Below the pieces are notes generated by a model. It had not been told where the DNA came from, did no database searches, and saw only the letters and a list, made by a program, of their open reading frames with translations. The position numbers and the translations under genes are program-made. DNA of 40,463 nucleotides, from positions 1-40,463 of the forward strand of contig JAKOVT010000194.1 in assembly GCA_029781935.1 (NCBI GenBank). The letters are read 5' to 3'. This DNA is from Actinomycetes bacterium. Lineage in GTDB: Bacteria; Actinomycetota; Actinomycetes; S36-B12; CAIYMF01. Positions 1 through 30,993 of this stretch are shown here, piece by piece (the first letter of the stretch is position 1; each line of letters opens with the position of its first letter).

Positions 1-930
1 GCGCTCCTCGCCGGGGCCGATCGCGACGCCGTCGCCGCGCCGGTAGTCGATGTAGGGGATGCCGATCGCCGCGTCGTCGTCGTCGCCCCACGGCAGGACC
101 CGCAGCACGGCGCGCCGCAGCCGGTCGAGCGGGCCGGGGATGGGCAGGCCGACGCCGATGACGTACTCGCCCGGGAGGTAGGCGCCCGAGTGCGACCCGG
201 CTCCGGCGTAGACCACGGGGTGCGTGCCGTGCACGAAGGCGATGTCGGGGTCGTCCCATCGGCGGCGCAGGTCGTCGCCCACCTCGTCGTGCGAGGAGAA
301 GGCGACCCACGCGGGAGTCGGCTCGGTCCCGGCACCGCGGTCGACCAGGAAGATCGTGACCTGCTCCCAGTCGGCCTCGTGGTCGTTGACGCCGCCGAAG
401 GTCGAGCGCCAGTCGTTCATCGCGTAGAGGTACCAGTACTGCAGCACGACGTAGCCGGCGTCGCGGGTGACATGGCCGTGGTAGGCGTACGACGACTGCG
501 CCCCCACCTGCCGGTGGGCGGCGGCGGCATAGCCGCCGGGCACCCGTCCGCGCAGGAGCAGGGTGAGCCGCATCGTCGTGTCGATGAGGCGCGACAGGAG
601 CCCGACGGAGGCGAACCGGCTGCTCGCGTGGAAGCGCGGGCGTTCGGGGTCGTTGCGCCAGGCCCGGAAGTCCTTGCGCGACAGCGGCTCTGCGACGTAC
701 TGCAAGTACATCGAGTCCTGGTCGTGCTCGCGACCGAGCTCGGCGAGGCGTTCCACGGTCAGCGTTCCCGGCTCGGCGAGGATCTCGCCGTCCTTCTTGT
801 CGCGGCGGCTCAGGTGCAGCGCCGCGTGGGCGAGGTACTCCTCGGCGCGCATCGGCAGGAACAGCTCGCCCTGCGTGTAGCGGATGACGGGCTCGTAGCG
901 GCGCAGCAGCTCGAGGTCGGACTCGCTCAT
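1..930 (-). CDS. Vps62-like (VPS62/DUF946-type) protein, 3' end truncated by window edge
   Basis: Reverse-strand reading from ATG at 928-930 is open to base 1: MSESDLELLRRYEPVIRYTQGELFLPMRAEEYL...YVVLQYWYLYAMNDWRSTFGGVNDHEADWEQVTIFL...YAGAGSHSGAYLPGEY. The NDHEADWE and AGSHxxY segments are typical of Vps62-like proteins. Absent from the ORF track because no stop lies inside the window. Confidence 0.75.
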   Translation of the reverse strand, partial: MSESDLELLRRYEPVIRYTQGELFLPMRAEEYLAHAALHLSRRDKKDGEILAEPGTLTVERLAELGREHDQDSMYLQYVAEPLSRKDFRAWRNDPERPRFHASSRFASVGLLSRLIDTTMRLTLLLRGRVPGGYAAAAHRQVGAQSSYAYHGHVTRDAGYVVLQYWYLYAMNDWRSTFGGVNDHEADWEQVTIFLVDRGAGTEPTPAWVAFSSHDEVGDDLRRRWDDPDIAFVHGTHPVVYAGAGSHSGAYLPGEYVIGVGLPIPGPLDRLRRAVLRVLPWGDDDDAAIGIPYIDYRRGDGVAIGPGEER

Positions 931-1054
931 CGTCGCGCGCCGCTCCTCGAAGCCTCCGGGCCACCGCCAGTCGTGACCGCGCTCCCGAGGATACGGAGGA
1001 CGCGCGCGCGGCACCTCCGGAACCGCGTTAACGGAGGTTACGCGGACCGCGGGT

Positions 1055-1240
1055 TCAGGCCGTGCGGCGCAGGGCGAGGGCGAGCGCGAGGACGGCGTCG
1101 TCGTCGCCCTCGTCGAGCAGCTCCCGCGGGGTGCGGTCACCGAGCTGGTGGCGCGGGCGCTCGAGCCAGGCGCGCACACCGGCGTCGTCGAGCACCGGCA
1201 GCAGGAGCTCCACGACGCGTCGGGTCGACTCGCTGCTCAT
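1055..1240 (-). CDS. Small protein resembling the antitoxin Xre/MbcA/ParS toxin-binding domain (DUF2384-like)
   Basis: 61 aa; AWLERPRHQLGDRTPRELLDEGDDDAVLALALAL follows the 'W-L-x-x-P-x-x-x-L-G-x-x-x-P-x-E-L-L' pattern of this domain. Confidence 0.55.
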   Translation of the reverse strand: MSSESTRRVVELLLPVLDDAGVRAWLERPRHQLGDRTPRELLDEGDDDAVLALALALRRTA

Positions 1241-1445
1241 CGTGGCCTCCTCTCCTGCCTTCGCTACCCAGGTCGGGCCGCGTTACCCCTGGGGATGTCG
1301 TCCGCTGGCACGACGTCGCTGCCGTGGGGCACCGGCAGGAAGGACGGACCAGGACGCGGCGTGGTTCCCGGCCGGTCGTCCCGGGTAGCGGACCCAGCTG
1401 CGGGAGCGGCTGCACGCCGCCAGTCGCGTTCGACAGACTGCCGTC

Positions 1446-4400
1446 ATGAGCCTGCTGCGGGGGTCGTCCGCCCCCGAGCCGCGCACCCTGGTCGACGTGC
1501 TGCGGGAGACCGTCGACGAGCACCCCGACGAGCCGGCGCTCGACAACGGCGCGCAGGTGCTGACCTACTCCGAGTTCCTCGAGGCGGCGGAGGACGTCGC
1601 CGCCGAGCTGCACGCGCACGGAGTCGGGCCGGGGGACAAGGTCGGGATCCGCATCCGGTCCGGGACCGTCGACCTGTACGTCGCCATCGCGGGGACGCTG
1701 CTCGCGGGGGCGGCGTACGTCCCCGTGGACGCCGACGATCCCGACGAGCGCGCGCGCACGGTGTTCCGCGAGGCGGAGGTGTCGGCCGTCCTGGCCGACG
1801 ACCTCGAGCTGACGGTCCGACGCCCGAAGCCAGCCGTGCCCGCGGGCACCACCGCCGCGCTCACCGACGACGCCTGGGTGATCTTCACCTCCGGCTCGAC
1901 GGGCGCACCGAAGGGCGTCGCCGTCTCACACCGCAGTGCCGCCGCCTTCGTCGACGCCGAGGCGCGGATGTTCCTCCAGGAGGATCCGCTCGGCCCCGGC
2001 GACCGGGTGATGGCCGGGCTGTCCGTCGCGTTCGACGCGTCGTGCGAGGAGATGTGGCTGGCCTGGCGGTACGGCGCGTGCCTCGTGCCCGCGCCGCGGT
2101 CGCTGGTGCGCAGCGGCATGGAGCTCGGCCCCTGGCTGGTCGCCAACGACCTCACCGTCGTCTCGACCGTCCCCACCCTGGTGGCCCTGTGGCCGCCGGA
2201 CGCGCTGGCCTCCGTGCGGCTGCTCATCCTCGGCGGCGAGGCGTGCCCGCCCGAGCTGGCGGCTCGCCTCGTCGAGGGCGGTCGTGAGGTCTGGAACACC
2301 TACGGGCCGACCGAGGCGACCGTCGTGGCCTGCGGCGCGCGGCTGACGGGCGTGCCCCCCGTGCGGATCGGTCTCCCGCTCGACGGCTGGGACCTGGCCG
2401 TCGTCGACGGGGAGGGTCGTCAGGTCGAGCCGGGCGGCGAGGGGGAGCTGATCATCGGCGGCGTCGGTCTCGCGCGGTACCTCGATCCGGCCAAGGACGC
2501 GGAGAAGTACGCGCCGATGCCCAGCCTCGGGTGGCAACGCGCCTATCGCAGCGGCGACCTCGTCCGCTACGAGGAGGAAGGGCTGCTCTTCCTCGGGCGG
2601 GCCGACGACCAGGTGAAGGTGGGCGGCCGACGCATCGAGCTCGGTGAGATCGACAGCGCCCTGCTGGCGCTGCCCGGCGTCACGGGGGCGGCTGCGGCGG
2701 TCCGGCGCAGCGGGTCGGGCAACGCGCTGCTCGTCGGCTACGTCGCGACCACCGACGACTTCGAGCCCGTCGCCGCCGTGGCGACGTTGCGGGCGACCCT
2801 GCCCGCCGCGCTGGTGCCCCGTCTCGCGCGGGTCGACACGCTGCCGACGCGCACCTCCGGGAAGATCGACCGCGACGCGCTGCCCTGGCCGCTCGAGACC
2901 GTCGACGCCGGTGAGTCGGTGCGCCTGCAGGGGACCGCCGGTGCTCTGCAGGACCTCTGGGCCGACATCCTGGGCGCCACCGTCGGCAGCGCCGACGACG
3001 ACTTCTTCGACCTCGGTGGTGGGAGCCTCGCCGCGGCGCAGCTGGTGTCGCGGTTGCGCGAGCACTACCCCGAGGTCGCCGTCGCCGACGTCTACGACCA
3101 TCCGCGGATCGGTGACCTCGCCACCGCGCTCGAGGCGCTCGCGACGCCTGCGGCGTACACGGATCGCACGGTGCACCCCGTGCCTCGGTCGTCGCAGGTG
3201 GTCCAGGTCCTGCTCACCGTGCCGCTGCGCACCATCACGGGTCTGCGCTGGCTCACCTGGGTGGCGCTCGGGTGCACCGTGGCGGCGCAGTGGTTCTCGG
3301 TGCCGTGGGTGCCGTCCGCGCCGTGGACGGTCGTCGTCCTGGCGTGGCTCCTCCTCGTCGCGGCCCCCGGCCGGATGCTGCTCACCGCTCTCGGTGCGCG
3401 CCTCGTCCTGGCCGGCGTAGGACCGGGCTCGTATCCGCGCGGCGGTGCCGTGCATGTCCGCGTCTGGGCGGCCGAGCGGCTCGCCGAGGAGCTCGGCGCC
3501 GCCAACCTCGCGGGAGCTCCCCTCATGCGGGTCTACGCGCGGTTGCTCGGAGCGCACGTCGGGCGCGACGTCGACCTCCACTCCATCCCGCCCGTCACCG
3601 GTCATCTCGTGCTCGGCGACGGGTGCTCCGTGGAGCCCGAGGTCGACCTGACCGGGCACTGGGTCGACGGCGACGTGCTCGTCGTCGGCACCCTCGAGAT
3701 CGGTCCGGACGCGCGCATCGGCGCACGCAGCATGCTGTGCCCGGGAGCCGTCGTCGGTGCCAGGGCCGAGATCGCCCCGGGCTCGGCCGTGTTCGGGGAG
3801 GTGCCCGCCGGGCAGGCGTGGGCCGGCGCACCCGCGCAACGACGCACGAAGGCGCGGGGTCCCTGGGACGAGCGGCCGCACAACCGACCGGTGTGGGTCC
3901 TGGCCTACGCCGCGATCGCGGTGGCCATCGCGTCGCTGCCCGGCGTCGCCGTCCTGGTGGTGCTCGGCCTCGCAGTGCCGTCGCTGCGCGCCGCAGGCTC
4001 GGTGAGCGGGGCTGCGCTCACCGCGCTGGCCTGGGTGCCGGTCGGCACCGTCGTCGGCCTTCTCGTGCTCGCGCTCCTCGTCGGGCTGCTGGTGCGGCTC
4101 CTCTCCCTCGGACTGACACCGGGCGCGCACCCCGTGCACGGCCGGCAGGCCTGGCAGGCGTGGGCGACCCTCAGGGTGCTCGACGAGGCGCGGACCTGGC
4201 TGTTCCCGTTGTACTCGAGCTCGTTGACGCCGACGTGGCTGCGAGCTCTCGGAGCGAGCATCGGGCCCCAGGTCGAGGCCTCGACCGTGCTGCTGATCCC
4301 CAAGCTCACCACCGTGCGCGAGGGCGCCTTCCTCGCCGACGACACGTTGCTCGGCAGCTACGAGCTCGGCGGGGGATGGCTGCGCGTCGAGCACGTCGAG

Positions 4401-5336
4401 ATCGGCAAGCACGCGTTCGTCGGCAACTCGGGCATGGCGGCGCCGGGCCGCAAGGTGCCCAAGCGCGGGCTGGTGGCGGTCCTGTCCGCAGCGCCGCGGC
4501 GCACCAAGGCCAAGGCCGGGACCTCGTGGCTCGGCAGCCCTCCCACCAGGCTGCGCCGGGTCGAGCAGAAGGCGGACCGCAGCCGGACCTACGACCCTCC
4601 ACCGCGCCTCGTCGTCGCGCGGGCTCTCGTCGAGCTGTGCCGGCTGGTGCCGGTGATGGTCGGGGTCTGCATCGGGCTCGGCGTCGTCGTCGCCCTGGTG
4701 CAGCTCGCGTCCGGGCGCGGATGGTGGCTCGCGATGCTGCTGTCGGGCCTGACGGTCATCGTGGCCGCGACGGTCGCCGCCGTCGTCACCACCGGGGCCA
4801 AGTGGCTGCTGGTCGGGCGGTTGCGCGCGGGCGACCATCCGCTCTGGAGCTCCTTCGTCTGGCGCAACGAGCTCGCCGACACCTTCGTCGAAGCGGTGGC
4901 GGCACCGTGGTTCGCGCGACCCGCGACAGGCACCCCGGTGCTGAACCTGTGGCTGCGCTCGCTGGGTGCGAGGATCGGCCGAGGGGTCTGGTGCGAGACG
5001 TACTGGCTCCCCGAGGCCGACCTGATCCACCTCCACGCGGGAGCCACCGTCAACCAGGGCTGCGTCGTCCAGACCCACCTGTTCCACGACCGGGTGCTGA
5101 GCATGGACACCGTCACGCTCCGCACCGGATCGACGCTCGGGCCCAACAGCGTGATCCTGCCCGCGGCCACGCTCGGCCGGCATGCGACTGTGGGCCCGGT
5201 GTCGCTGGTGATGCGCGGGGAGTCCGTGCCGGACAAGACGAGGTGGATCGGCAACCCCATCGGCCCGTGGCCGCTCGCGGAGGCATCGACCGACGGCGAG
5301 GCCGACCCCGACGACCGAGAGGAACCTGAGGCGTGA
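1446..5336 (+). CDS. Pls/PosA family non-ribosomal peptide synthetase (A-T plus multi-TM tandem left-handed beta-helix acyltransferase-like domains)
   Basis: A-domain motifs IFTSGSTGAPKG, NTYGPTEAT, YRSGDLVRYEEEG, GRADDQVKVGGRRIELGEI, RTSGKIDRDAL; carrier motif DDFFDLGGGSLAAAQL; then hydrophobic helices alternating with hexapeptide-repeat segments (e.g. IGPDARIGARSMLCPGAVVGARAEIAPGSAVFG). No canonical C or TE domain. Confidence 0.9.
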   Translation: MSLLRGSSAPEPRTLVDVLRETVDEHPDEPALDNGAQVLTYSEFLEAAEDVAAELHAHGVGPGDKVGIRIRSGTVDLYVAIAGTLLAGAAYVPVDADDPDERARTVFREAEVSAVLADDLELTVRRPKPAVPAGTTAALTDDAWVIFTSGSTGAPKGVAVSHRSAAAFVDAEARMFLQEDPLGPGDRVMAGLSVAFDASCEEMWLAWRYGACLVPAPRSLVRSGMELGPWLVANDLTVVSTVPTLVALWPPDALASVRLLILGGEACPPELAARLVEGGREVWNTYGPTEATVVACGARLTGVPPVRIGLPLDGWDLAVVDGEGRQVEPGGEGELIIGGVGLARYLDPAKDAEKYAPMPSLGWQRAYRSGDLVRYEEEGLLFLGRADDQVKVGGRRIELGEIDSALLALPGVTGAAAAVRRSGSGNALLVGYVATTDDFEPVAAVATLRATLPAALVPRLARVDTLPTRTSGKIDRDALPWPLETVDAGESVRLQGTAGALQDLWADILGATVGSADDDFFDLGGGSLAAAQLVSRLREHYPEVAVADVYDHPRIGDLATALEALATPAAYTDRTVHPVPRSSQVVQVLLTVPLRTITGLRWLTWVALGCTVAAQWFSVPWVPSAPWTVVVLAWLLLVAAPGRMLLTALGARLVLAGVGPGSYPRGGAVHVRVWAAERLAEELGAANLAGAPLMRVYARLLGAHVGRDVDLHSIPPVTGHLVLGDGCSVEPEVDLTGHWVDGDVLVVGTLEIGPDARIGARSMLCPGAVVGARAEIAPGSAVFGEVPAGQAWAGAPAQRRTKARGPWDERPHNRPVWVLAYAAIAVAIASLPGVAVLVVLGLAVPSLRAAGSVSGAALTALAWVPVGTVVGLLVLALLVGLLVRLLSLGLTPGAHPVHGRQAWQAWATLRVLDEARTWLFPLYSSSLTPTWLRALGASIGPQVEASTVLLIPKLTTVREGAFLADDTLLGSYELGGGWLRVEHVEIGKHAFVGNSGMAAPGRKVPKRGLVAVLSAAPRRTKAKAGTSWLGSPPTRLRRVEQKADRSRTYDPPPRLVVARALVELCRLVPVMVGVCIGLGVVVALVQLASGRGWWLAMLLSGLTVIVAATVAAVVTTGAKWLLVGRLRAGDHPLWSSFVWRNELADTFVEAVAAPWFARPATGTPVLNLWLRSLGARIGRGVWCETYWLPEADLIHLHAGATVNQGCVVQTHLFHDRVLSMDTVTLRTGSTLGPNSVILPAATLGRHATVGPVSLVMRGESVPDKTRWIGNPIGPWPLAEASTDGEADPDDREEPEA

Positions 5337-6658
5337 GGGACGGCGTGACGGGCGACCCGTACTTCCCGGACCGCGGTGACCGCCGCTACTCGGTCTCGCA
5401 CTACGACCTCGTCCTGTCCTACGACGTCCACTCGAACCAGTTGCGCGGCAAGGCGTCCCTGATGGTCGAGGCCCGCACCGAGCTCCGCGATCTGCGGCTG
5501 GACCTCGTCGGCTTCCGGGTCTCCAAGGTCACCGTCGACGGCGATGCCGTGCGGTTCTCGGTGACCTCGCAGCACCTGGTGGTGCGGCCGCGCACCAGGA
5601 TCGCCGCCGGCGGATCCGTGCGGGTCGTGGTGACCTACGCCGGGAAGCCGCTCCCGGTCCCGGACGGCGACGACGCGTGCGGCTGGGAGGAGCTCGACGA
5701 CGGCGTGCTGGTCGCCGGGCAGACCAACGGCGCGCCGTCGTGGTTCCCGTGCAACGACCGGCCCGACGACAAGGCGACCTACCGGTTCGAGCTCGTCGTC
5801 GCGAACGCCTACCACGTGGTCGCGAACGGCGTGTGCACCAGCCGATGGCGCTCGGCCGGCGCGACGACGTGGGTCTACGAGCAGCGCGAGCCGATGCCGA
5901 CCTACCTCGCCACGGTCCAGATCGGCCGCTACGTCGTGCTGCCGGTCGACGGCGCGTCGGTCCCGATGTCGGCCGTCCTGCCGAAGGCCCTGCTGGGCCG
6001 CTACGGCTCGGCGTTCGGCAGGCAGCCCGAGATGCTCGATTTCTACGCGCGGCTGTTCGGCCCGTACCCGTTCGCGGCGTACACGGTGGTGATCACGGAG
6101 GACGAGCTCGAGATCCCCTTGGAGGCGCAGGGGATGTCGACGTTCGGCTCGAACTTCCTGACGTCGGACTGGGAGCACGTGCGGCTGGTCGCGCACGAGC
6201 TCTCCCACCAGTGGTTCGGCAACGCCGTCACCGCAGCGTCGTGGAGCGACATCTGGCTGCACGAGGGCTTCGCCTGCTACTGCGAGTGGTTGTGGTCGGA
6301 GGAGTCGGGCGGGCGCTCCGCCGACGCGCACGCACGCAGCCACTGGACGAAGCTCGCGGCCAAGAAGCAGGACCTGCTGCTCGGCGACCCCGGACCCGAC
6401 CTCATGTTCGACGACCGCGTCTACAAGCGTGGGGCGCTGCTGCTGCACGCGCTGCGGCTGACGATCGGCGACGAGCGCTTCTTCGGCCTCCTGCGCACGT
6501 GGATCGACAGGAACTGCTTCGGCTCCGTGACCACGGCGATGTTCGAGGCGCTCGCGGCCGAGATCCACGGGCAGCGGCTCGACGGCCTGTTCGACGCGTG
6601 GTTGCGCGAGACCCGCCTGCCCGAGCTCCCGGCGTCCGTCGCGGAGCCCTCGAGCTAG
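5333..6658 (+). CDS. M1 family zinc metallopeptidase
   Basis: HELSHQWFGNAVTAASWSDIWLHEGFACYCEWLW = HExxH-(18x)-E gluzincin signature. GTG start overlaps the upstream stop by 4 bp (GTGA). Confidence 0.9.
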   Translation: MRDGVTGDPYFPDRGDRRYSVSHYDLVLSYDVHSNQLRGKASLMVEARTELRDLRLDLVGFRVSKVTVDGDAVRFSVTSQHLVVRPRTRIAAGGSVRVVVTYAGKPLPVPDGDDACGWEELDDGVLVAGQTNGAPSWFPCNDRPDDKATYRFELVVANAYHVVANGVCTSRWRSAGATTWVYEQREPMPTYLATVQIGRYVVLPVDGASVPMSAVLPKALLGRYGSAFGRQPEMLDFYARLFGPYPFAAYTVVITEDELEIPLEAQGMSTFGSNFLTSDWEHVRLVAHELSHQWFGNAVTAASWSDIWLHEGFACYCEWLWSEESGGRSADAHARSHWTKLAAKKQDLLLGDPGPDLMFDDRVYKRGALLLHALRLTIGDERFFGLLRTWIDRNCFGSVTTAMFEALAAEIHGQRLDGLFDAWLRETRLPELPASVAEPSS

Positions 6659-7215
6659 TCGAGGCCCCGGACCTCCACCGCGACGACGTCGTGGCCGGTC
6701 AGGACGACGACGCTGACGACGTGTCGCGGGACGTCGACGTCGAGCACCCGCGCGTGCGGCGGCCGCGGCTGGTCGGACTCCCACCGGACCACGCCCGTCT
6801 CGTCGAGCCGGACGTGGCGCGGGTCCAGGACCAGACCGGTCCCGAGCGCCTTGACGAGCGCCTCCGTGCGCACCCAGGTGCGGGTCGGGTCGGTGCCCGG
6901 CAGGTGCGCAGCGACCGTGGGGAACCCCGGGAAGTCCGCGGCACCAGGGGGCTCCACGTCGACGCCGATCGGTCCCAGGTCGGTGACGGCGACCACGGAC
7001 ATCGCACCGGCTCGAGCCAGGCTGACGGCCGCCGGCTCGCGCAGCGACGCGGTGGGAAGGACCAGCGGCCGGCCGTGCTCGTCGCTGCCGCAGCGCCCGC
7101 AGGCGTGGCCGAGGACGACCCGATCCCGCGAGACCCCGTGGAACCGCGCGACCTCGGAGCGCAGCAGGTCGTGCGCCGCGACCTCGGCGTAGGCGACGAG
7201 GACGCGGCCGCTCAT
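6655..7215 (-). CDS. 4'-phosphopantetheinyl transferase, Sfp/HetI-like
   Basis: 186 aa with IGVDVEPP and TWVRTEALVKALGTGL motifs, and an upstream SLARAGAMSVVAV segment matching the SxSH-type region. Convergent with the M1 gene (4 bp stop overlap). Confidence 0.8.
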   Translation of the reverse strand: MSGRVLVAYAEVAAHDLLRSEVARFHGVSRDRVVLGHACGRCGSDEHGRPLVLPTASLREPAAVSLARAGAMSVVAVTDLGPIGVDVEPPGAADFPGFPTVAAHLPGTDPTRTWVRTEALVKALGTGLVLDPRHVRLDETGVVRWESDQPRPPHARVLDVDVPRHVVSVVVLTGHDVVAVEVRGLD

Positions 7216-7250
7216 GCGTGGACGCTATCCCGTGCTGCGGTCGGGCGATC

Positions 7251-9203
7251 TCACTCGCGGACGAGGGCCTGGGCGCGGGCGAGCCGCACGGCGTCCTCGA
7301 GGGCACGCACGTCGTAGGCGCCGTGGTGGCGCGAGCCGTTGATGAAGAACGTGGGCGTCCCGCGGACGCCGCTGAGGTCGGCGCTCTCGACGTCGTCGGC
7401 CACGCGCGGCTCGTGCTCGTGCTTGCGCAGGTCGTGCACGAGGCGGTCGACGTCGAGTCCGAGGCTGGTCGCATGCCGGACGAGGTCCTCCGGGCGCAGC
7501 TCGTCCTGGTGCTCGAGCAGCAGGTCGTGCATCTCCCAGAAGGCGCCCTGCGCAGCGGCCGCCTCCGCGGCCTCGGCGGCCAGCTGCGCCTGCGGGTGCA
7601 CGTCGCGCAGCGGCAGGTGGCGCCACACGTAGCGGACATCACCGAAGTCGCTGAGCAGCTCGCGCACCGCAGCTTCGGCCAGACCGCAGTAGGGGCACTG
7701 GAAGTCGCCGTACTCCACCACGGTCACCGGGGCGTCGGCAGGGCCGCGGACGTGGTCGCGCGCCGCATCGACCGGCTCGGCGAGGTCGACGAGCGACTCC
7801 GCCTCGCCGAGGAGCGCGCGCACGCGACGCCGCGTGGGCAGCCTCTCGGTGAGCGAGAACGCGATCCACGTGATGGCTGCCGAGAGGACGCCGGCGACGA
7901 GGATGCCGAGCTTCGCCTCGTCCAGCGTCTGCCCCTCGAACGCGATCGTCGCGATGAGCAGGCTGAGGGTGAAGCCGATGCCCGAGACCGTCCCGGCACC
8001 CAGGACCGCAGCCCATCCGACCGACGGCCGGAGCCGTCCGTGCGAGAGGCGCGTGGTCAGCCAGGCACCTCCCACGATGCCCAGCGGCTTGCCGACGACG
8101 AAGGCGACGACGACCCCCCACAGGACCGGCGAGCGCAGGGCAGTCGCGAGGAAGTCGCCTCGGACGACGATGCCGGCGTTGGCCAGGGCGAAGAGCGGCA
8201 CGATGACGTAGCTCGTCCACGGATGGAACAGCGCCTGGAGCCGCTCGTTCGGCGGCACGGCGGCGCGCACGCCCTGCGCCGCCGATCGGGCGAGCTCGGG
8301 CGTCGGCTGCTCGCGGAAGTCGCGGAACAGCCCCGACGCGCGCTCGAGCGTCTCGGTGGCGACGGGCCGGGCGAACACCAGCATGCCGAGCACGAGACCG
8401 ATGACGACGGGGTCGACGCCGCTCTGCTCGAGCGCGAACCACGCGAGGACGCCGACCAGCAGGTAGAGGGCTCCGCTGTGCACGCGCAGCCGCAGGAGCA
8501 CGACGACCAGCAGCAGGAGCAGGAGCGCGACGACGAGCGGCCCCAGGACGACCGAGTCCGCGTAGACGGTCGCGATCGCCACCAGCGCGACGAGGTCGTC
8601 GGTGATGAGCACGGTGAGGAGGAACGCGCGCAGCCGGTCGGAGAACCGTGGTCCCACCACCGCGAGCACCCCGAGCGCGAACGCCGTGTCGGTCGACAGC
8701 GCGACGCCCCAGCCGTGCGCACCGCCGGACGCCGCGGTGATCGCCACGAAGAGCAGCGCCGACACGGCCATCCCGGCCACGCCCGCCACCACCGGCAGGA
8801 TCACACGACGCCGTTCGCGCAGCTCGCCGATGTCGAACTCGCGCCGCGTCTCGAGGCCGACGACGAAGAAGTAGAACGCCATCAACCCGGAGTTGATCCA
8901 CTCGGTCGCCGTGAGGACGAGCTCGTGGTCGCCCCACGTCAACCCGATCTCGGTGCCCCAGCACCCGGCGTACGCCGCCGGCGCGACGTTGGCCCACACC
9001 AGGGCTACCGCGGCCGCGGCCAGCAGCAGCGCGGCACCCCCGCTCTCGGTGCGCAGGAACTCCCGCAGGGGTGTGGAGCCGTACGTCGACCACCCGGTCG
9101 TCGGGGACTCCGACGTCTCCTGGGGCGGCGGATCCGTGCTCGGCGTCGGCGTTGGCGGCGTCTCCGGCCCCGAAGCCTCGGCGCCCCGCTCGTCGATGCC
9201 CAC
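7251..9203 (-). CDS. nhaA: Na+/H+ antiporter NhaA with fused C-terminal DsbA-like thioredoxin domain
   Basis: NhaA signatures STDTAFALGVLAVVG, LITDDLVALVAIATV, GIGFTLSLLIATIAFEG; C-terminal VVEYGDFQCPYCGLAE (CPYC) and cis-Pro loop VRGTPTFFING. Start set at GTG 9203 (VGIDERGAEASG); the ORF upstream of this looks non-coding. Confidence 0.88.
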   Translation of the reverse strand: MGIDERGAEASGPETPPTPTPSTDPPPQETSESPTTGWSTYGSTPLREFLRTESGGAALLLAAAAVALVWANVAPAAYAGCWGTEIGLTWGDHELVLTATEWINSGLMAFYFFVVGLETRREFDIGELRERRRVILPVVAGVAGMAVSALLFVAITAASGGAHGWGVALSTDTAFALGVLAVVGPRFSDRLRAFLLTVLITDDLVALVAIATVYADSVVLGPLVVALLLLLLVVVLLRLRVHSGALYLLVGVLAWFALEQSGVDPVVIGLVLGMLVFARPVATETLERASGLFRDFREQPTPELARSAAQGVRAAVPPNERLQALFHPWTSYVIVPLFALANAGIVVRGDFLATALRSPVLWGVVVAFVVGKPLGIVGGAWLTTRLSHGRLRPSVGWAAVLGAGTVSGIGFTLSLLIATIAFEGQTLDEAKLGILVAGVLSAAITWIAFSLTERLPTRRRVRALLGEAESLVDLAEPVDAARDHVRGPADAPVTVVEYGDFQCPYCGLAEAAVRELLSDFGDVRYVWRHLPLRDVHPQAQLAAEAAEAAAAQGAFWEMHDLLLEHQDELRPEDLVRHATSLGLDVDRLVHDLRKHEHEPRVADDVESADLSGVRGTPTFFINGSRHHGAYDVRALEDAVRLARAQALVRE

Positions 9204-25305: not shown

Positions 25306-26496
25306 GTGCGTCCGCACCCCGTGCTCGTCGTCGGGGAGCTGATCGGCGTGGGCGTCTCGAGCGAGATCCTCCAGCTGGGCCTGATCTTCCTGGCTGCTGC
25401 CGGCGCCGGCTGGCTCGCGCGGAAGCTGACGCTCCCGGCCGTCCTCGGCTTCCTCGCGGTCGGCGTCGTCGTGTCGCCGTTCACCCCGGGATACGTCGCG
25501 CCGCGCGAGCACGTCGAGCTGCTCGCGGAGTTCGGCGTCGTGCTCCTGCTCTTCGAGGTGGGCATCGAGATCAACCTGCACAGCATCGGTCGCGAGCAGC
25601 GCGCCCTGCTGCTCGCGGTGCCCGCGCAGGTAGCGCTCACCACGCTGCTCACCGGCGGGCTGTTCGTCGCGTTCGGCATGGTGCTCACCACCGCGCTCGT
25701 CCTCGGACTCGCTGTCGCGCTGTCGTCCAGCGTGGTCGTGGTCAACATCGTGCGGAGCCGTCGACGTCGCACCGACCGGGCGACCGAGTCCGCGATGCTG
25801 ACGTGGAGCGTGCTTCAGGACATCTGCGGGGTGCTGCTCGCTGCGCTGCTGCTCTCGGTCGCCGGCGTCTCCGACCGTGGACCGGCGCTCGCGATCGCCG
25901 GGCTGGTCGGCTTCCTCGTCGTCTCCGCCGCGGCCGCGTGGCTGCTGCCCCGAGCGCTGCGCCATCTCGGCTCCGAGCCGGACCTGTTCCTGCTCGTGTC
26001 CATCGGCGTCGGCCTCGGACTCGCAGGTCTGGGGGCCGTCGTCTTCGGCGTCCCCGCCGCCCTCGCGGCGTTCATCGCCGGCCTCGCCGTCGCCGAGTCG
26101 CCCGAGTCGGTGACCGCGCGACGGCAGCTCGTGCCCTTCCGCGACGTGTTCGCCGTCCTGTTCTTCGTGTCGGTCGGCACCCTCATCAACCCGCAGGCCG
26201 TCCTCGCCGGGCTGCCGTGGCTCGCCCTCGTGCTGGTCGCGCTCGTCGTGACGAAGGTGGGCGTTGCGGCGCTGGCCGCGAGGTACGCAGGGGTGTCGCG
26301 GCCGCTCCAGCTCGCGGTCGGGATCGGGCAGGTCGGCGAGCTGAGCTTCGTCCTCGCGTCCCTGCTCGTGACCGCCGGTCTGCTGTCGGGGGAGATCTAC
26401 GCCGCCATGCTGAGCGCAGTCGTGATCAGCATCGCGGTGTCGACGGTCGTCGTGCGGCTGCACTGGACGCGTTCGCCCGCACCCGCCGTTCTCTAG
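25306..26496 (+). CDS. Kef-type (CPA2) cation:proton antiporter, membrane domain only
   Basis: LPAVLGFLAVGVVVSPFTPG; FGVVLLLFEVGIEINLHSIGREQ; SSSVVVVNIVRSR; FVSVGTLINPQAVLAG; GQVGELSFVLASLL. No TrkA-N domain. Confidence 0.88.
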   Translation: MRPHPVLVVGELIGVGVSSEILQLGLIFLAAAGAGWLARKLTLPAVLGFLAVGVVVSPFTPGYVAPREHVELLAEFGVVLLLFEVGIEINLHSIGREQRALLLAVPAQVALTTLLTGGLFVAFGMVLTTALVLGLAVALSSSVVVVNIVRSRRRRTDRATESAMLTWSVLQDICGVLLAALLLSVAGVSDRGPALAIAGLVGFLVVSAAAAWLLPRALRHLGSEPDLFLLVSIGVGLGLAGLGAVVFGVPAALAAFIAGLAVAESPESVTARRQLVPFRDVFAVLFFVSVGTLINPQAVLAGLPWLALVLVALVVTKVGVAALAARYAGVSRPLQLAVGIGQVGELSFVLASLLVTAGLLSGEIYAAMLSAVVISIAVSTVVVRLHWTRSPAPAVL

Positions 26497-28517
26497 GACG
26501 TCGAGGACGAGCCGGCCGAGCTGAGCTCCTCGACGTCGGTGCGCGGCGTCATGCCGTGCTCGGCGTAGAGCTCGAGGAGCTGGTCCGCCGGCATCGGGTG
26601 CGCGTAGAGGAAGCCCTGCGCGAGGTCGCAACCGAGCCGGCGCAGGTGGTCGGCCGTGGCGCGCGCCTCCACACCCTCGGCGACGGCGACCATCTGGAAC
26701 TCGTGCGCGAGGTCGGTCACGACGCGCACGAGGACCTCGTTGCCGTTCTCGAGGTCGACGATGAACGAGCGGTCGATCTTCAGGGTGTCGACGGGCAGGT
26801 CGCGCAGCTGGCTGATCGACGTGTTCCCGATGCCGAAGTCGTCGAGCGCGATGGTCGAGCCCATCGCCGCGATCTTGCGCAGGGTGATGGCGGCCCGCTC
26901 GGGGTCCTGCACGATCGCCGACTCGGTGATCTCGAACTCGAGCAGCTGCGCGGGTACGTCGTACTCCTCGAGCAGCGCGGCGATCTTGTGGTCGAGGTCG
27001 GGCTCGGAGAGGTTGAGCGCAGACAGGTTCACGGCCACCTGCACCTCCCAGCCGGCCCGCCGCCAGTCGCGCAGCTGGCTCAGCACCAGCTCGAGGACCT
27101 TGCGGGTGAGGCTGTGCACGAGGCCGGTGCGCTCGGCGAGCGGCACGAAGTCGCCGGGCGGGATGTTGCCGCGGGTCGGGTGGTTCCAGCGCAGCAGCGC
27201 CTCGAGGCCCACGATGTCCCCGGACGCGAGGTCGATCTTGGGCTGGTAGTGGATGCTGAGCTGGTCGTCGCTGCTCAGCGCCTGGCGCAGGTCTCCGAGC
27301 AGGATCAGCTTGGCGGTCGAGCTCGAGTCGCCGCCGGGGTCGTAGACGCTGAGACCGATGCGCCCGGCCTTCGCGACGTACATCGCGATGTCGGCGTGCT
27401 TGAGAAGCGTCGTGATGTCGTCCGCGTGGTCGGGCAGCACCGCGAGGCCCACCGACGTCTCGACGTGGAGCACGAGCCCGTCCATGTGGAAGGGCTCCGC
27501 GAACTGCTCGAGCACCCGCTGCCCGAACATCACGCCGTCGTCGACGCTGCGGACGCTCGACAGCAGGATGGCGAACTCGTCGCCGCCGAGCCGCGCGACC
27601 GTGTCGGTCGACCGCACGATGCTCGACAGTCGCGAGGCCACCTGCTGCAGGAGCTGGTCGCCGCGGTCGTGCCCGAGCGAGTCGTTGATCTCCTTGAACG
27701 CATCCACGTCGATGATGAGCAGTCCGAGCTGGGTGCTGTTGGCGGTGGACTGCTCGCTCGCGACCTCGAGACGCTGGGAGAGCAGGCGCCGGTTGGGCAG
27801 CCCGGTCAGCGGGTCGAGCAGGGCGAGGCGCGCGTTCTCCGACGCCGAGGCGCGCAGCACGCGGCTGGCGCGGCGGACCGTGCGGAAGAGCAGCAACCAC
27901 ACGGCGACGAGGCAGCCGGCCACGAGCAGCGCTACCCGCTGCAGCGCCTGCGAGGTAGCGGCCCAGTTCGAGGAGTAGTCGAGGACGACCTGCGCGACGG
28001 CGACGGGCGCGCCGTTGCCCTTGGCGCGCACCGGGACGTAGACGTCGAGCACGGTCTCGGCGTCCGACACCACGCGGGAGCCGTCGGCGCTCGCGGGACC
28101 GGCGCTCTCGACCTGCGTCACGATCTCGGCCGTCGGCGTGGAGGAGCCGAGCGCGAGGTCGAGCCGCTCGGTGTCCGGGAACGCGTACGACGTCGAGTCC
28201 GCGTTCGAGTCGTAGATCGGTCGGCCGGACGGCACGAAGATCCGCACCTCGCGCAGGTCGGAGTCCAGTCGCAGGTTGCGCGCCAGAGCCTGCGTCGACG
28301 CGGGCGAGAGCTGCTCGGCGGTCCACTCCTTGAGCGGCACGTGGTCGTTCACGCCCGTCTTCACGTACGCGACCGCCGTGCGCACCGCGTCGTCGAGCGC
28401 CTGCTGGCGCATGAACTGGCTCTGCGTGAGCACCAGGGCCACACCGAGCGCGGACATGGCGACGATGCTCACGACCGCGAACGTCGTCGTGAGCGTGCGA
28501 TGCCGCCGGCGTGCCAT
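26493..28517 (-). CDS. Membrane GGDEF-EAL protein (c-di-GMP cyclase/phosphodiesterase)
   Basis: RLGGDEFAILLSS (intact GGDEF) and GLEALLRWNHP (EAL), plus ITESAIVQD, LDDFGIGNTSISQLRDLPVDTLKIDRSFI, EGVEARATADHLRRLGCDLAQGFLYAHPM. Two TM helices flank an extracytoplasmic N-terminal sensor region. Confidence 0.95.
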   Translation of the reverse strand: MARRRHRTLTTTFAVVSIVAMSALGVALVLTQSQFMRQQALDDAVRTAVAYVKTGVNDHVPLKEWTAEQLSPASTQALARNLRLDSDLREVRIFVPSGRPIYDSNADSTSYAFPDTERLDLALGSSTPTAEIVTQVESAGPASADGSRVVSDAETVLDVYVPVRAKGNGAPVAVAQVVLDYSSNWAATSQALQRVALLVAGCLVAVWLLLFRTVRRASRVLRASASENARLALLDPLTGLPNRRLLSQRLEVASEQSTANSTQLGLLIIDVDAFKEINDSLGHDRGDQLLQQVASRLSSIVRSTDTVARLGGDEFAILLSSVRSVDDGVMFGQRVLEQFAEPFHMDGLVLHVETSVGLAVLPDHADDITTLLKHADIAMYVAKAGRIGLSVYDPGGDSSSTAKLILLGDLRQALSSDDQLSIHYQPKIDLASGDIVGLEALLRWNHPTRGNIPPGDFVPLAERTGLVHSLTRKVLELVLSQLRDWRRAGWEVQVAVNLSALNLSEPDLDHKIAALLEEYDVPAQLLEFEITESAIVQDPERAAITLRKIAAMGSTIALDDFGIGNTSISQLRDLPVDTLKIDRSFIVDLENGNEVLVRVVTDLAHEFQMVAVAEGVEARATADHLRRLGCDLAQGFLYAHPMPADQLLELYAEHGMTPRTDVEELSSAGSSSTS

Positions 28518-28579
28518 GTGCGTGCCCCCTTCCTGCTCTCGTGCCGCTCCTGCCGTGCGCCGCGGGTCGTGCCCGCCGT

Positions 28580-29467
28580 TCACCAGTGGTTGGCGCCCCA
28601 GAGGTCGGCCACCTCGGCGCCGGACAGCGCCCGGCCCTCCCAGATGGCGAGCTCGTCCTGCCGCAGCGCTGCCTGGTTGCGCGACCCGGTGATCACGGTC
28701 GCGACGTTCTGGTCCCAGCCGGCGCGCCAGTAGCCGGTGTACGCCGGTCGCGGCGACGCCACGATCCCTGCGGCCACCTGGACCCCGTCGACGTACAGGC
28801 GCGCCGACGTCCCGGACAGGGTCGCGACCACGAGGTGCAGCACGTTGTCGGTGACGCGGGCCGGGCTCGTGAGGAGCACGTTGCCGGTCGTCGTGGCCAC
28901 CTGGAACACGGCGCGCCCCGAGCGGTCGAGGAGGAGCGCGCGATCCTGCACGGTCGATCCCGCGGTCGCGGAGTCGCCGAAACCGACGATCCGTCCGCCG
29001 TTGAGCGAGGTGCTGCGGATCCACGTCGCGATCGTCAGGGTCGTCGGCGACGTGACGGGTGTCGCGGAGACGACACGGCCCGTGCTGCCCGCGTTGCCGA
29101 GCTGGCGCATCGCGTACGTCGTGTCGCAGGTGACCAGACCGGTGTTGGCGGTGCCGAAGGTGACGCCGTTGCCGGTCAGCGTCCCCGTGCGTCCGTGCCC
29201 GCTGCCGTCGGTGATCGTCGTCGTCCCGGTCACCTCGGAGAACCGCCACCACAGCGACGGCAGGTAGGACGGGCTCCCGAGCAGCGTCGCGTAGGGGGTG
29301 CCTCCGCCGCAGGCGGCCCGGGTGGTCGCCGACGTCGTGGCCGCGGCGCTGGAGGTGTACTGCGCCGACGTCGTGCTCACGAGCGGAAGGACCGAGGCCA
29401 CGACGGCCAGACCGGCCGCCAGCGGCAGTCGGAGACGACGAGCGGTGTCACGCGGCAGTCGACGCAT
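28580..29467 (-). CDS. Secreted LamG/concanavalin-like domain protein
   Basis: N-terminal signal; SLWWRFSEVTGTTTITDGSGHGRTGTLTG; TLTIATWIRSTSLNGGRIVGFGD; HLVVATLSGTSARLYVDGVQVAAG; LDELAIWEGRALSGAEVADLW-type ending. Confidence 0.85.
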   Translation of the reverse strand: MRRLPRDTARRLRLPLAAGLAVVASVLPLVSTTSAQYTSSAAATTSATTRAACGGGTPYATLLGSPSYLPSLWWRFSEVTGTTTITDGSGHGRTGTLTGNGVTFGTANTGLVTCDTTYAMRQLGNAGSTGRVVSATPVTSPTTLTIATWIRSTSLNGGRIVGFGDSATAGSTVQDRALLLDRSGRAVFQVATTTGNVLLTSPARVTDNVLHLVVATLSGTSARLYVDGVQVAAGIVASPRPAYTGYWRAGWDQNVATVITGSRNQAALRQDELAIWEGRALSGAEVADLWGANHW

Positions 29468-30161
29468 CGGCGTCTCCTGACAGGTCGCCGGCGCGACGCG
29501 GGCGCCGGACCAGGCGCCGGGCGCCGTCGACGAGAGGGGCGAGGTCCACGATCGACCGCGAGCGCAGCTCGAGGAGCGCCAGGACCAGCAGCGGGGGCAC
29601 GAACAGGATGAGCCGACCCATGGGCGAGTGGGCCCAGGCGAGCGGGACGCCCCAGCCCGGGTGGACCTCGCGCACGATGCCGCGCACCGACGTCGCGGGC
29701 GTGAGGTTGGGGTCGTCGACCTTGTTGGCGTCGCCCTTGGTCTTGATGTAGGGGTCCTTGATCGGCTGCCCGTCGGCTCCGAGGACGCCGTTGCCCTGGT
29801 TGTCGACCCGTTCCACCCGCGCCATGCCGACGATGCGGTGCGTGACGAGGGTCGCCGAGCCCACCGGGTAGAAGGTGATGATCTGTCCCACGCGCAGCTG
29901 CGACGCGTCGGTCACCTGCTGGATCACGACGCCGTCGCCGGCGGCGATCTCTGGCGCCATCGACCCGCTCGTGACGACGAGCAGCCGGTTCCCGTGCAGC
30001 TGGTACCAGAGCGGGACGGCGTACGACGCGAGGATCAGCGCCACGAAGGGGGCGATGAGCAGCGTCGGCCCCCACGAGCGCCAGCTCGCGGACGCGCGTG
30101 CCAGCACGATCGCCGAACCGCTGCGCCACGCGGGCGCGGCGACCTCCTCGACCGTCGTCAT
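29448..30161 (-). CDS. SipW-like (ER-type, S26B) signal peptidase I
   Basis: LLVVTSGSMAPEIAAGDGVVIQQ (Ser box), ATLVTHRIVGMARV (His instead of Lys in the dyad), YIKTKGDANKVDDPNLTP box. ATG at 30159-30161. Confidence 0.9.
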   Translation of the reverse strand: MTTVEEVAAPAWRSGSAIVLARASASWRSWGPTLLIAPFVALILASYAVPLWYQLHGNRLLVVTSGSMAPEIAAGDGVVIQQVTDASQLRVGQIITFYPVGSATLVTHRIVGMARVERVDNQGNGVLGADGQPIKDPYIKTKGDANKVDDPNLTPATSVRGIVREVHPGWGVPLAWAHSPMGRLILFVPPLLVLALLELRSRSIVDLAPLVDGARRLVRRPRRAGDLSGDADASTAA

Positions 30162-30188
30162 GTCATCACCCCCTCGTGACACGGACGG

Positions 30189-30226
30189 GCTCGGTGGCCG
30201 CTCCGCCCCCGGGGCGGCCACCGAGC
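30189..30226 (-). terminator. Hairpin between TasA-like and SipW-like genes (attenuator/processing site/partial terminator)
   Basis: GCTCGGTGGCCGCTCC-gccccc-GGGGCGGCCACCGAGC: 16-bp stem with one G-U-type pair, immediately after the stop at 30230. No U-tract. Confidence 0.55.
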
Positions 30227-30229
30227 TCA

Positions 30230-30877
30230 TCAGTTGTTCTTCGTCTGCTCCGCGTCGAACGTGAGCGTCACGTTCGCCGACGCGCTGGCGAAGGCCGATG
30301 TGGTGGCGAGCGGGAGGTTCATCGCGACGCACAGGTCCTCGTTGCTGCCCGGTCCGGTGGGCAGGGGTCGGTCACCGGCCTGGAAGCCGTTGGCCTTGTT
30401 GCCGACGAGCGCAGTCGACGTGAGACCGATGGTCACGTTCGACGCGATCGCCGGGGCGCCGCCCATGTTGCCCAGCGCGCAGGCGCCCGACGGCACACCG
30501 GCGTAGACCGTGTACGACAGCACCGACGACAGGTTCTTGGTGTCCGACGTGGTCTGGCCCGAGATCGCGTAGCGCAGGTCGAGCGAGCCGGTGTTCGCGA
30601 CGTTGATGGCGCGGTAGACGGTGTCGCCGGGCGCCAGGTTGGTCGCCGGTGCGAGCGCGATGCTCGACGAGCCGTTGGCCTGGATCGCGACGTTGCCCGA
30701 CGCGTACGACACGGCGGCGGTGGCGCTGTCCTCGAAGAGCGCACCGGTCGCGAGCTGGCCGATGCCCACGAAAGCCAGGCCCACGATGGCAGCGGTGGTG
30801 ATCAGTCGGCGCCGACGCTCACGATCCGCCTTCGACTCGCGGTCGTAGGCGTCCAGCTCGGCAAGCAGCTCGTCCAT
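30230..30877 (-). CDS. TasA/CalY-like (SipW-dependent-type) secreted protein
   Basis: Charged N-terminus, single hydrophobic helix, then GALFEDSATAAVSYASGNVAIQANG...TVYRAINVANTGSLDLRYAISG, as in SipW-type signal plus camelysin/TasA-fold proteins; sits beside the SipW-like peptidase. Confidence 0.8.
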   Translation of the reverse strand: MDELLAELDAYDRESKADRERRRRLITTAAIVGLAFVGIGQLATGALFEDSATAAVSYASGNVAIQANGSSSIALAPATNLAPGDTVYRAINVANTGSLDLRYAISGQTTSDTKNLSSVLSYTVYAGVPSGACALGNMGGAPAIASNVTIGLTSTALVGNKANGFQAGDRPLPTGPGSNEDLCVAMNLPLATTSAFASASANVTLTFDAEQTKNN

Positions 30878-30904
30878 GGGTTCCCCCCATCCGCGGGGGG
30901 ACCC
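30878..30904 (-). promoter_or_regulatory. Hairpin sequestering the Shine-Dalgarno of the TasA-like gene
   Basis: mRNA sense: GGGTCCCCCC-gcggat-GGGGGGAACCC-ATG: 10 bp stem, one bulged A, abutting the start codon and containing the G-rich SD. Confidence 0.5.
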
Positions 30905-30993
30905 CTCCGTCTCCCCTCTGGGACGAGAATGTCGACGCCGGAGAGCGGAACTTGAGGAATCGCCGGTCCGCCGAACGGACGATCCCGGCCCTG

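Follow-up and report, generated by a model that had tools for sequence, protein, structure and literature searches.

The closest described relatives of the system studied here come from Bacillus, whose best-studied matrix scaffold consists of TasA fibres. In the tapA-sipW-tasA operon of B. subtilis (PMC9674648, PMC10151520), the jelly-roll subunit TasA is matured by a dedicated signal peptidase of the endoplasmic reticulum (ER) type, SipW, and assembles by a donor-strand mechanism (PMC9674648). The first TasA receives the N-terminal strand of TapA, whose gene overlaps sipW; TapA begins with AFHDI, similar to the AFNDI of TasA, and its residues 44-57 alone allow biofilm formation (PMC10151520). 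The TasA cleavage site is marked by an aromatic residue two places past the cut, with which the ordinary signal peptidase copes poorly (PMC10269814). We analysed a related locus in a 40,463-nucleotide stretch (hereafter the window) of contig JAKOVT010000194.1, from the Actinomycetes bacterium assembly GCA_029781935.1. Four genes on the minus strand encode, in order of transcription, a TasA-like protein, a SipW-like peptidase, a protein with a LamG domain, and a membrane protein with GGDEF and EAL domains. We consider it probable, at roughly 60%, that this unit produces an extracellular fibre of the TasA type and couples it to cyclic di-GMP (c-di-GMP).

The locus resembles the B. subtilis operon in its TasA-type subunit, its ER-type peptidase, and a third, predicted SipW substrate with a TasA-like N-terminus whose gene overlaps sipW. 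It differs from that operon by being in another phylum, by the order tasA-sipW-third gene, and by a candidate initiator that carries a LamG domain or is a bare strand, where TapA of B. subtilis has an Ig domain. Also, the B. subtilis operon is under SinR control, whereas here we find a linked GGDEF-EAL gene and a WhiG-type promoter. The sipW-tasA/calY/CapP system of B. cereus (PMC13082335) shares TasA-like subunits, SipW, and an accessory filament starter processed by SipW, but has no GGDEF-EAL gene, and the text describing it mentions neither c-di-GMP nor a donor strand. PMC9674648 also cites the bundling pili of archaea as TasA-related donor-strand fibres; the text consulted there contains no c-di-GMP element. 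Each part of the unit is of a known kind. A literature search of partial coverage returned no paper in which SipW and LamG occur together, which is not proof of absence. In the same partial coverage, the titles and abstracts of papers with both TasA and Cellulomonas do not report TasA fibres there.

Conservation of the four-gene unit

The four open reading frames of the original prediction are all present on the minus strand, with unchanged boundaries. The tasA-like gene (30230-30877) is separated by 68 nucleotides from sipW (29448-30161), sipW overlaps the LamG gene (28580-29467) by 20 nucleotides, and a gap of 62 nucleotides precedes the GGDEF-EAL gene (26493-28517). The unit is flanked by a convergent gene of the Na+/H+ exchanger type and by a divergent zwf. 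The genome (G000) amounts to 4.17 Mb in 517 contigs, with an estimated completeness of 95.7% and a contamination of 8.7%.

The original prediction had asked whether the four families occur together in related genomes, and they do. Named relatives place the window's group in Candidatus Nanopelagicales. Among the 17 genomes of its family, seven encode TasA-like proteins. Four Nanopelagicales genomes (G000, G008, G004, and G003) have the complete unit in identical order and strand between differing flanks, with 59-63% identity of the GGDEF-EAL protein in the latter three; a further genome (G011) has sipW, lamG, and the GGDEF/EAL gene at a contig edge. A permuted unit, with the order GGDEF-EAL, tasA, sipW, and a LamG-like gene, is found in JAHLLI MAG62, whose LamG-like protein matches Laminin_G_3 (E-value 4e-9), and in Actinotalea ferrariae. 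Of the 200 genomes sampled from the family of Actinotalea, the Cellulomonadaceae, 73 encode the TasA class of the unit, and we analysed the loci of the best-scoring 40. A full-length GGDEF-EAL gene adjoins tasA on the same strand, in the permuted order, in all 40 loci. In 39 there is also a sipW, and the remaining locus ends at the end of its contig. The genes outside the unit differ between subgroups.

Across broader samples, TasA-like matches were found in 45 of 395 genomes at the level of the class and in 32 of 397 at the level of the phylum, mostly with sipW nearby. Most of these loci lack a linked GGDEF-EAL gene, and the full four-gene unit is therefore a minority type. The families f26 and f33 carry the core of tasA, sipW, and lamG with no such gene alongside. 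The four genes thus show conserved co-occurrence, with the GGDEF-EAL gene as a non-obligatory part of the cluster.

Other SipW clusters were seen in the course of these searches. Three clusters of Acidimicrobiales (L085, positions 2-7522, L094, and L095) have a different GGDEF-EAL gene immediately upstream of TasA-like/SipW-type substrates; next come a very large protein and a further TasA-like gene. This looks like an independent link to c-di-GMP. The window's genome has a second SipW cluster on another contig (C161; L006, 5423-10570), with four tandem tasA-like genes, sipW, a LamG gene, and a gene for a small protein of 182 amino acids. This cluster has neither a GGDEF-EAL gene nor a WhiG-type promoter. 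G007 carries a similar cluster and a relative of the 182-residue protein.

The TasA-like protein

The tasA-like gene encodes the candidate major fibre subunit (215 amino acids). Its product meets the Pfam cut-off of the Peptidase_M73/camelysin family (E-value 2.4e-9), whereas its match to the NCBIfam TasA model (E-value 4e-7) reaches 29.7 bits, far under the cut-off of 450. It is thus a camelysin/TasA-like member, and not TasA proper, by these profile assignments. The AlphaFold2 model built with 11 relatives has a mean confidence (pLDDT) of 71, and its N-terminus is poorly ordered up to about residue 59. When this model was compared by Foldseek with 350,542 PDB chains, the first two matches were structures of B. 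subtilis TasA, 5of1 (5of1_B) and 5of2, with E-values of 7.8e-5 and 3.3e-4 and modest TM-scores (approximately 0.4). A single-sequence search of the PDB gave no match, but a profile search with the TasA sequences placed TasA on top (8aur, E-value 0.006; 5of1, E-value 0.009). The lack of a TasA/camelysin fold had been named as a way to refute the original prediction; the best match in the PDB is TasA.

The predicted cleavage region of the protein reads TGA-LFEDS. The predicted mature N-terminus, TGA-LFEDSATAAVSYASGNV (30686-30739), was located by alignment and by comparison of N-termini. It looks like a donor strand, which makes donor-strand exchange a candidate mode of assembly. The precursor begins with a conserved cytoplasmic n-region, MDELLAELD...RRRR (30803-30877). 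A start of the MDDLL type is present in 47 of 50 relatives and lacking in the C161 paralogues. Such an acidic cytoplasmic start (MDDLLQEMIDP...RRRR) is conserved for this class of precursors in several families and may bind a cytoplasmic partner. We rejected it as a marker of linkage to the GGDEF-EAL gene, since it is also present in f26 clusters lacking that link.

The gap between tasA and sipW can fold into a hairpin with a stem of 13 bp (30189-30226; -43.2 kcal/mol for the 68 nucleotides). Lying directly 3' of tasA, it could reduce the expression of sipW and lamG relative to tasA. Only the window and L017 have a strong hairpin; that of L019 is weak and L018 has none, and the hairpin was therefore discarded as a conserved element.

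The SipW-like peptidase and the third protein

The product of sipW (237 amino acids) was proposed to be an ER-type SipW-like peptidase. It scores 67.8 bits against TIGR02228, the archaeal/ER-type signal peptidase family (cut-off 51.85), and Ser67, His108, and Asp144, its catalytic residues, are invariant across six relatives, in agreement with that proposal. The overlap between the end of sipW and the start of the third gene (29448-29467) was confirmed. It is identical in L017, L018, L071, and L081, and almost every one of the 39 Cellulomonadaceae loci that have a sipW shows the third gene starting at -20.

The third protein of the window (295 amino acids) carries a Laminin_G_3 domain at residues 129-287 (28607-29083; E-value 5.9e-16). 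Its predicted cleavage region, TSA-QYTSS, has the same pattern as that of TasA, and its relatives have TSA-AFTS, TAA-VFSA, or TGA-FFTS; the mature N-terminus would be TSA-QYTSSAAATTSATTRAAC (29309-29362). To quantify this resemblance, we trained a cleavage-site score on TasA sites and applied it to 269 control open reading frames. The score exceeded the 99th percentile of the controls in 38 of 45 third proteins. A TasA-mimicking N-terminus at a SipW-type site is thus found in third proteins, marginally so in that of the window. This predicted site supports the suggestion that SipW has a second substrate in the LamG protein.

The length of the third protein varies widely among Cellulomonadaceae: 259-400 residues in eight loci and 62-163 in 30. 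Most of the short proteins consist of a signal peptide and a short segment such as QFTDSTDVSITFVVAPEQP, and in one clade only about 20 residues follow the signal peptide. These begin with TSA-QFTDS..., nearly the same as the start of TasA itself, TSA-LFTDN.... The LamG domain is present in the third proteins of Nanopelagicales, f26, f33, and Actinotalea-like relatives, and in the tree a single change sets the LamG forms and the short forms apart. The LamG part was thus lost while the strand was kept. Given that 14 such residues suffice for TapA of Bacillus, the third protein is best read, by analogy, as a donor-strand initiator of which LamG is an optional cargo. The Ig domain of TapA was found neither in the window protein, which carries LamG, nor in the relatives, which carry LamG or no domain. 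The third protein is therefore not a member of the TapA family and would be TapA-like in function only. The original prediction had also considered a tip adhesin; with a dispensable LamG part, a TapA-like initiator is the better reading.

The linked GGDEF-EAL enzyme

The fourth gene encodes a membrane protein of 674 amino acids, predicted from the outset to have intact GGDEF and EAL motifs. Domain matches and motif checks bear this out: the GGDEF domain (27366-27824) with its I-site RSTD, and the EAL domain (26595-27293) with its catalytic and metal-binding residues, are all intact. Nine motifs of the two domains are present in all five Nanopelagicales copies. The enzyme is putatively bifunctional, acting as cyclase and/or phosphodiesterase. 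Its extracytoplasmic region (27963-28430) reached no Pfam family cut-off; structure prediction (pLDDT 91) gave it an sCache/PDC fold, with the extracellular PDC/sCache domain of WalK (9a5d, 4ywz) as best PDB matches.

Two genomes (G880 and G881) have 20 and 14 GGDEF-EAL matches, respectively, of which only the tasA-linked enzyme matches its subfamily over the full length. The Cellulomonadaceae copies form one clade in the enzyme tree, sister to the Nanopelagicales copies (SH-aLRT 94). Both a single ancestral link between the enzyme and tasA, followed by losses, and two separate recruitments are possible. Members of the subfamily also occupy a conserved place between pheA and serS in f26, f33, and f30 (L258-L263). 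In 12 loci (L312, L313, L315, L319, L320, L323, L328, L332, L333, L340, L348, and L349), the linked gene has additional GGDEF-EAL genes on its upstream side, which form small c-di-GMP islands.

A candidate WhiG-type promoter upstream of tasA

Counts of k-mers upstream of tasA gave CTCAAGT and TGCCGAT as the strongest common words, which together take the form of a WhiG/FliA promoter (-10 GCCGATAA, PMC8325347). The conserved motif is CTCAAGT-N13/14-GCCGATAA; its -35 element, CTCAAGT, differs from the TAAA of the described RsiG-WhiG system. In the window, the candidate promoter CTCAAGT-N13-GTCGACAT (30929-30956) lies 79 nucleotides upstream of tasA. We built a position weight matrix from Cellulomonadaceae sites only, and scored both strands of the 40 kb of the window. 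The site upstream of tasA came first in five loci (L018, L169, L170, L171, and L078); it took second place in the window and in L017, and third place in L019. These are all eight core loci outside Cellulomonadaceae with an intact upstream region, and the site lies 74-96 nucleotides before tasA. In C161-type clusters, the ranks were only 148 and 183. Within Cellulomonadaceae, training sites included, the rank was three or better in 34 of 40 loci.

Loaded with c-di-GMP, the anti-sigma factor RsiG binds the sigma factor WhiG; the targets known for this system are sporulation in Streptomyces and type IV pili in Rubrobacter, and do not include TasA fibres (PMC8325347). The window's assembly encodes homologues of both proteins: WhiG (E-value 2.8e-115 to 6pfj_A, above the NCBIfam cut-off for WhiG) and RsiG (E-value 3.3e-37 to 6pfj_T). 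To judge from these genes and the promoter, c-di-GMP could plausibly act on tasA through RsiG and WhiG. The original interpretation of the cluster is supported overall, with corrections, of which this is one: if WhiG/RsiG is the effector, the fibre genes would be expressed when c-di-GMP is low, since loaded RsiG holds WhiG.

Two other regulatory elements were discarded. As for a c-di-GMP riboswitch, no Rfam family reached its gathering threshold in the window, and the lone match between 26000 and 31500 (E-value 0.27) is a chance match. The BldD-like box TNAC-N5-GTNA has a single match, at a large distance from tasA; chance alone would yield more. Another contig of the genome (C424; L355) encodes a second RsiG-like protein with two motifs of the c-di-GMP type, ETKVSYWRRIIQARLD and ERELSAYRRELHGRID, and a weak match to the RsiG of Rubrobacter (E-value 1.2e-4).

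Model and alternative explanations

If the unit makes a c-di-GMP-coupled fibre, it could work as follows. TasA and the LamG protein would be exported and cut by SipW at TSA-x-(F/Y/L). By homology with TasA and TapA, the freed N-terminus of TasA would insert as a donor strand into the next subunit. The third protein would provide the first strand and start the fibre, which would place LamG at the fibre end here; in one Cellulomonadaceae clade, it would be little more than the strand. The conserved membrane GGDEF-EAL protein, with its outer sCache sensor, would tune the level of c-di-GMP. Loaded RsiG would hold WhiG, and a fall in c-di-GMP would free WhiG to transcribe tasA; in species lacking RsiG, another effector would take the place of this step. 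The complete chain, from an outside-sensing GGDEF-EAL through c-di-GMP, RsiG, and WhiG to the TasA operon and a SipW-released starter strand, with the free peptide of about 20 residues in one Cellulomonadaceae clade as a natural minimal TapA, is tentative, and we rate its chances as clearly below even.

Several observations weigh against a coupled system. The 40 Cellulomonadaceae loci come from one family, are not independent, and were picked as best-scoring TasA matches. In f26 and f33, the relative of the enzyme sits between pheA and serS and not at tasA, and two close paralogues in Nanopelagicales are also unlinked to tasA. The promoter is absent upstream of tasA in six Actinotalea-like loci and in L326, and the -10 element of the window fits the consensus only partly. 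WhiG and RsiG are on other contigs of a genome with appreciable contamination, even if the composition of these contigs fits, and RsiG has not been described as typical for Cellulomonadaceae. On the TasA-trained site score, the window's LamG protein reaches 5.1, barely above the 4.98 that marks the 99th percentile of the controls.

The enzyme may be a mere neighbour of a fibre module made of tasA, sipW, and the third gene, and feed a general pool of c-di-GMP. This would fit the core lacking an adjacent enzyme in f26 and f33, the subfamily lying at pheA-serS there and beside other genes in Nanopelagicales, and the many further GGDEF-EAL genes of these genomes. We find it doubtful in view of the linkage in 40 of 40 Cellulomonadaceae loci despite changing flanks, its occurrence in two orders with different gene arrangements, and a WhiG-type promoter in a genome that encodes WhiG and RsiG. 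A different question is the role of the third protein, which could sit at the fibre end as an anchor or adhesin, its LamG domain binding sugar or the cell wall and its cleavage site reflecting SipW processing only. LamG folds commonly bind carbohydrates, and the domain recurs in Nanopelagicales, f26, f33, and Actinotalea-like relatives. Yet 30 Cellulomonadaceae loci have dispensed with it while keeping the signal peptide and the TSA-xFTD strand, and mature peptides of about 20 residues could hardly be adhesins, which makes such a role unlikely.

The short third genes might even be chance frames at the end of sipW, given that spurious long open reading frames abound in GC-rich DNA and that the pooled ratio of non-synonymous to synonymous changes (pN/pS) is only 0.62, indicating weak purifying selection. 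However, nearly all start exactly at -20 behind a site resembling a ribosome-binding site, the signal peptide and TSA-xFTD are retained in diverged genomes, and full-length LamG homologues occupy the identical position. This explanation is thus very improbable. As for the subunit, the Pfam name Peptidase_M73 would suit camelysin-type secreted proteases, or the proteins could have another function at the surface; with TasA as best structural match, a donor-strand-like N-terminus, and SipW encoded alongside, we give this hardly any credence. A TasA-type fibre coupled to c-di-GMP remains our preferred reading of the unit.

Implications

TasA fibres, known mainly from Bacillus, look to be extended here to another phylum with a new wiring. 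Even among Bacillus, TapA lacks conservation (PMC10151520), which raises the question of how other TasA systems start their fibres; the unit offers a family-wide candidate answer. If the proposed control is correct, the RsiG-WhiG response to c-di-GMP would have matrix fibres as an output besides sporulation and type IV pili, and the Gram-positive Actinomycetota would have a concrete matrix target for this second messenger.

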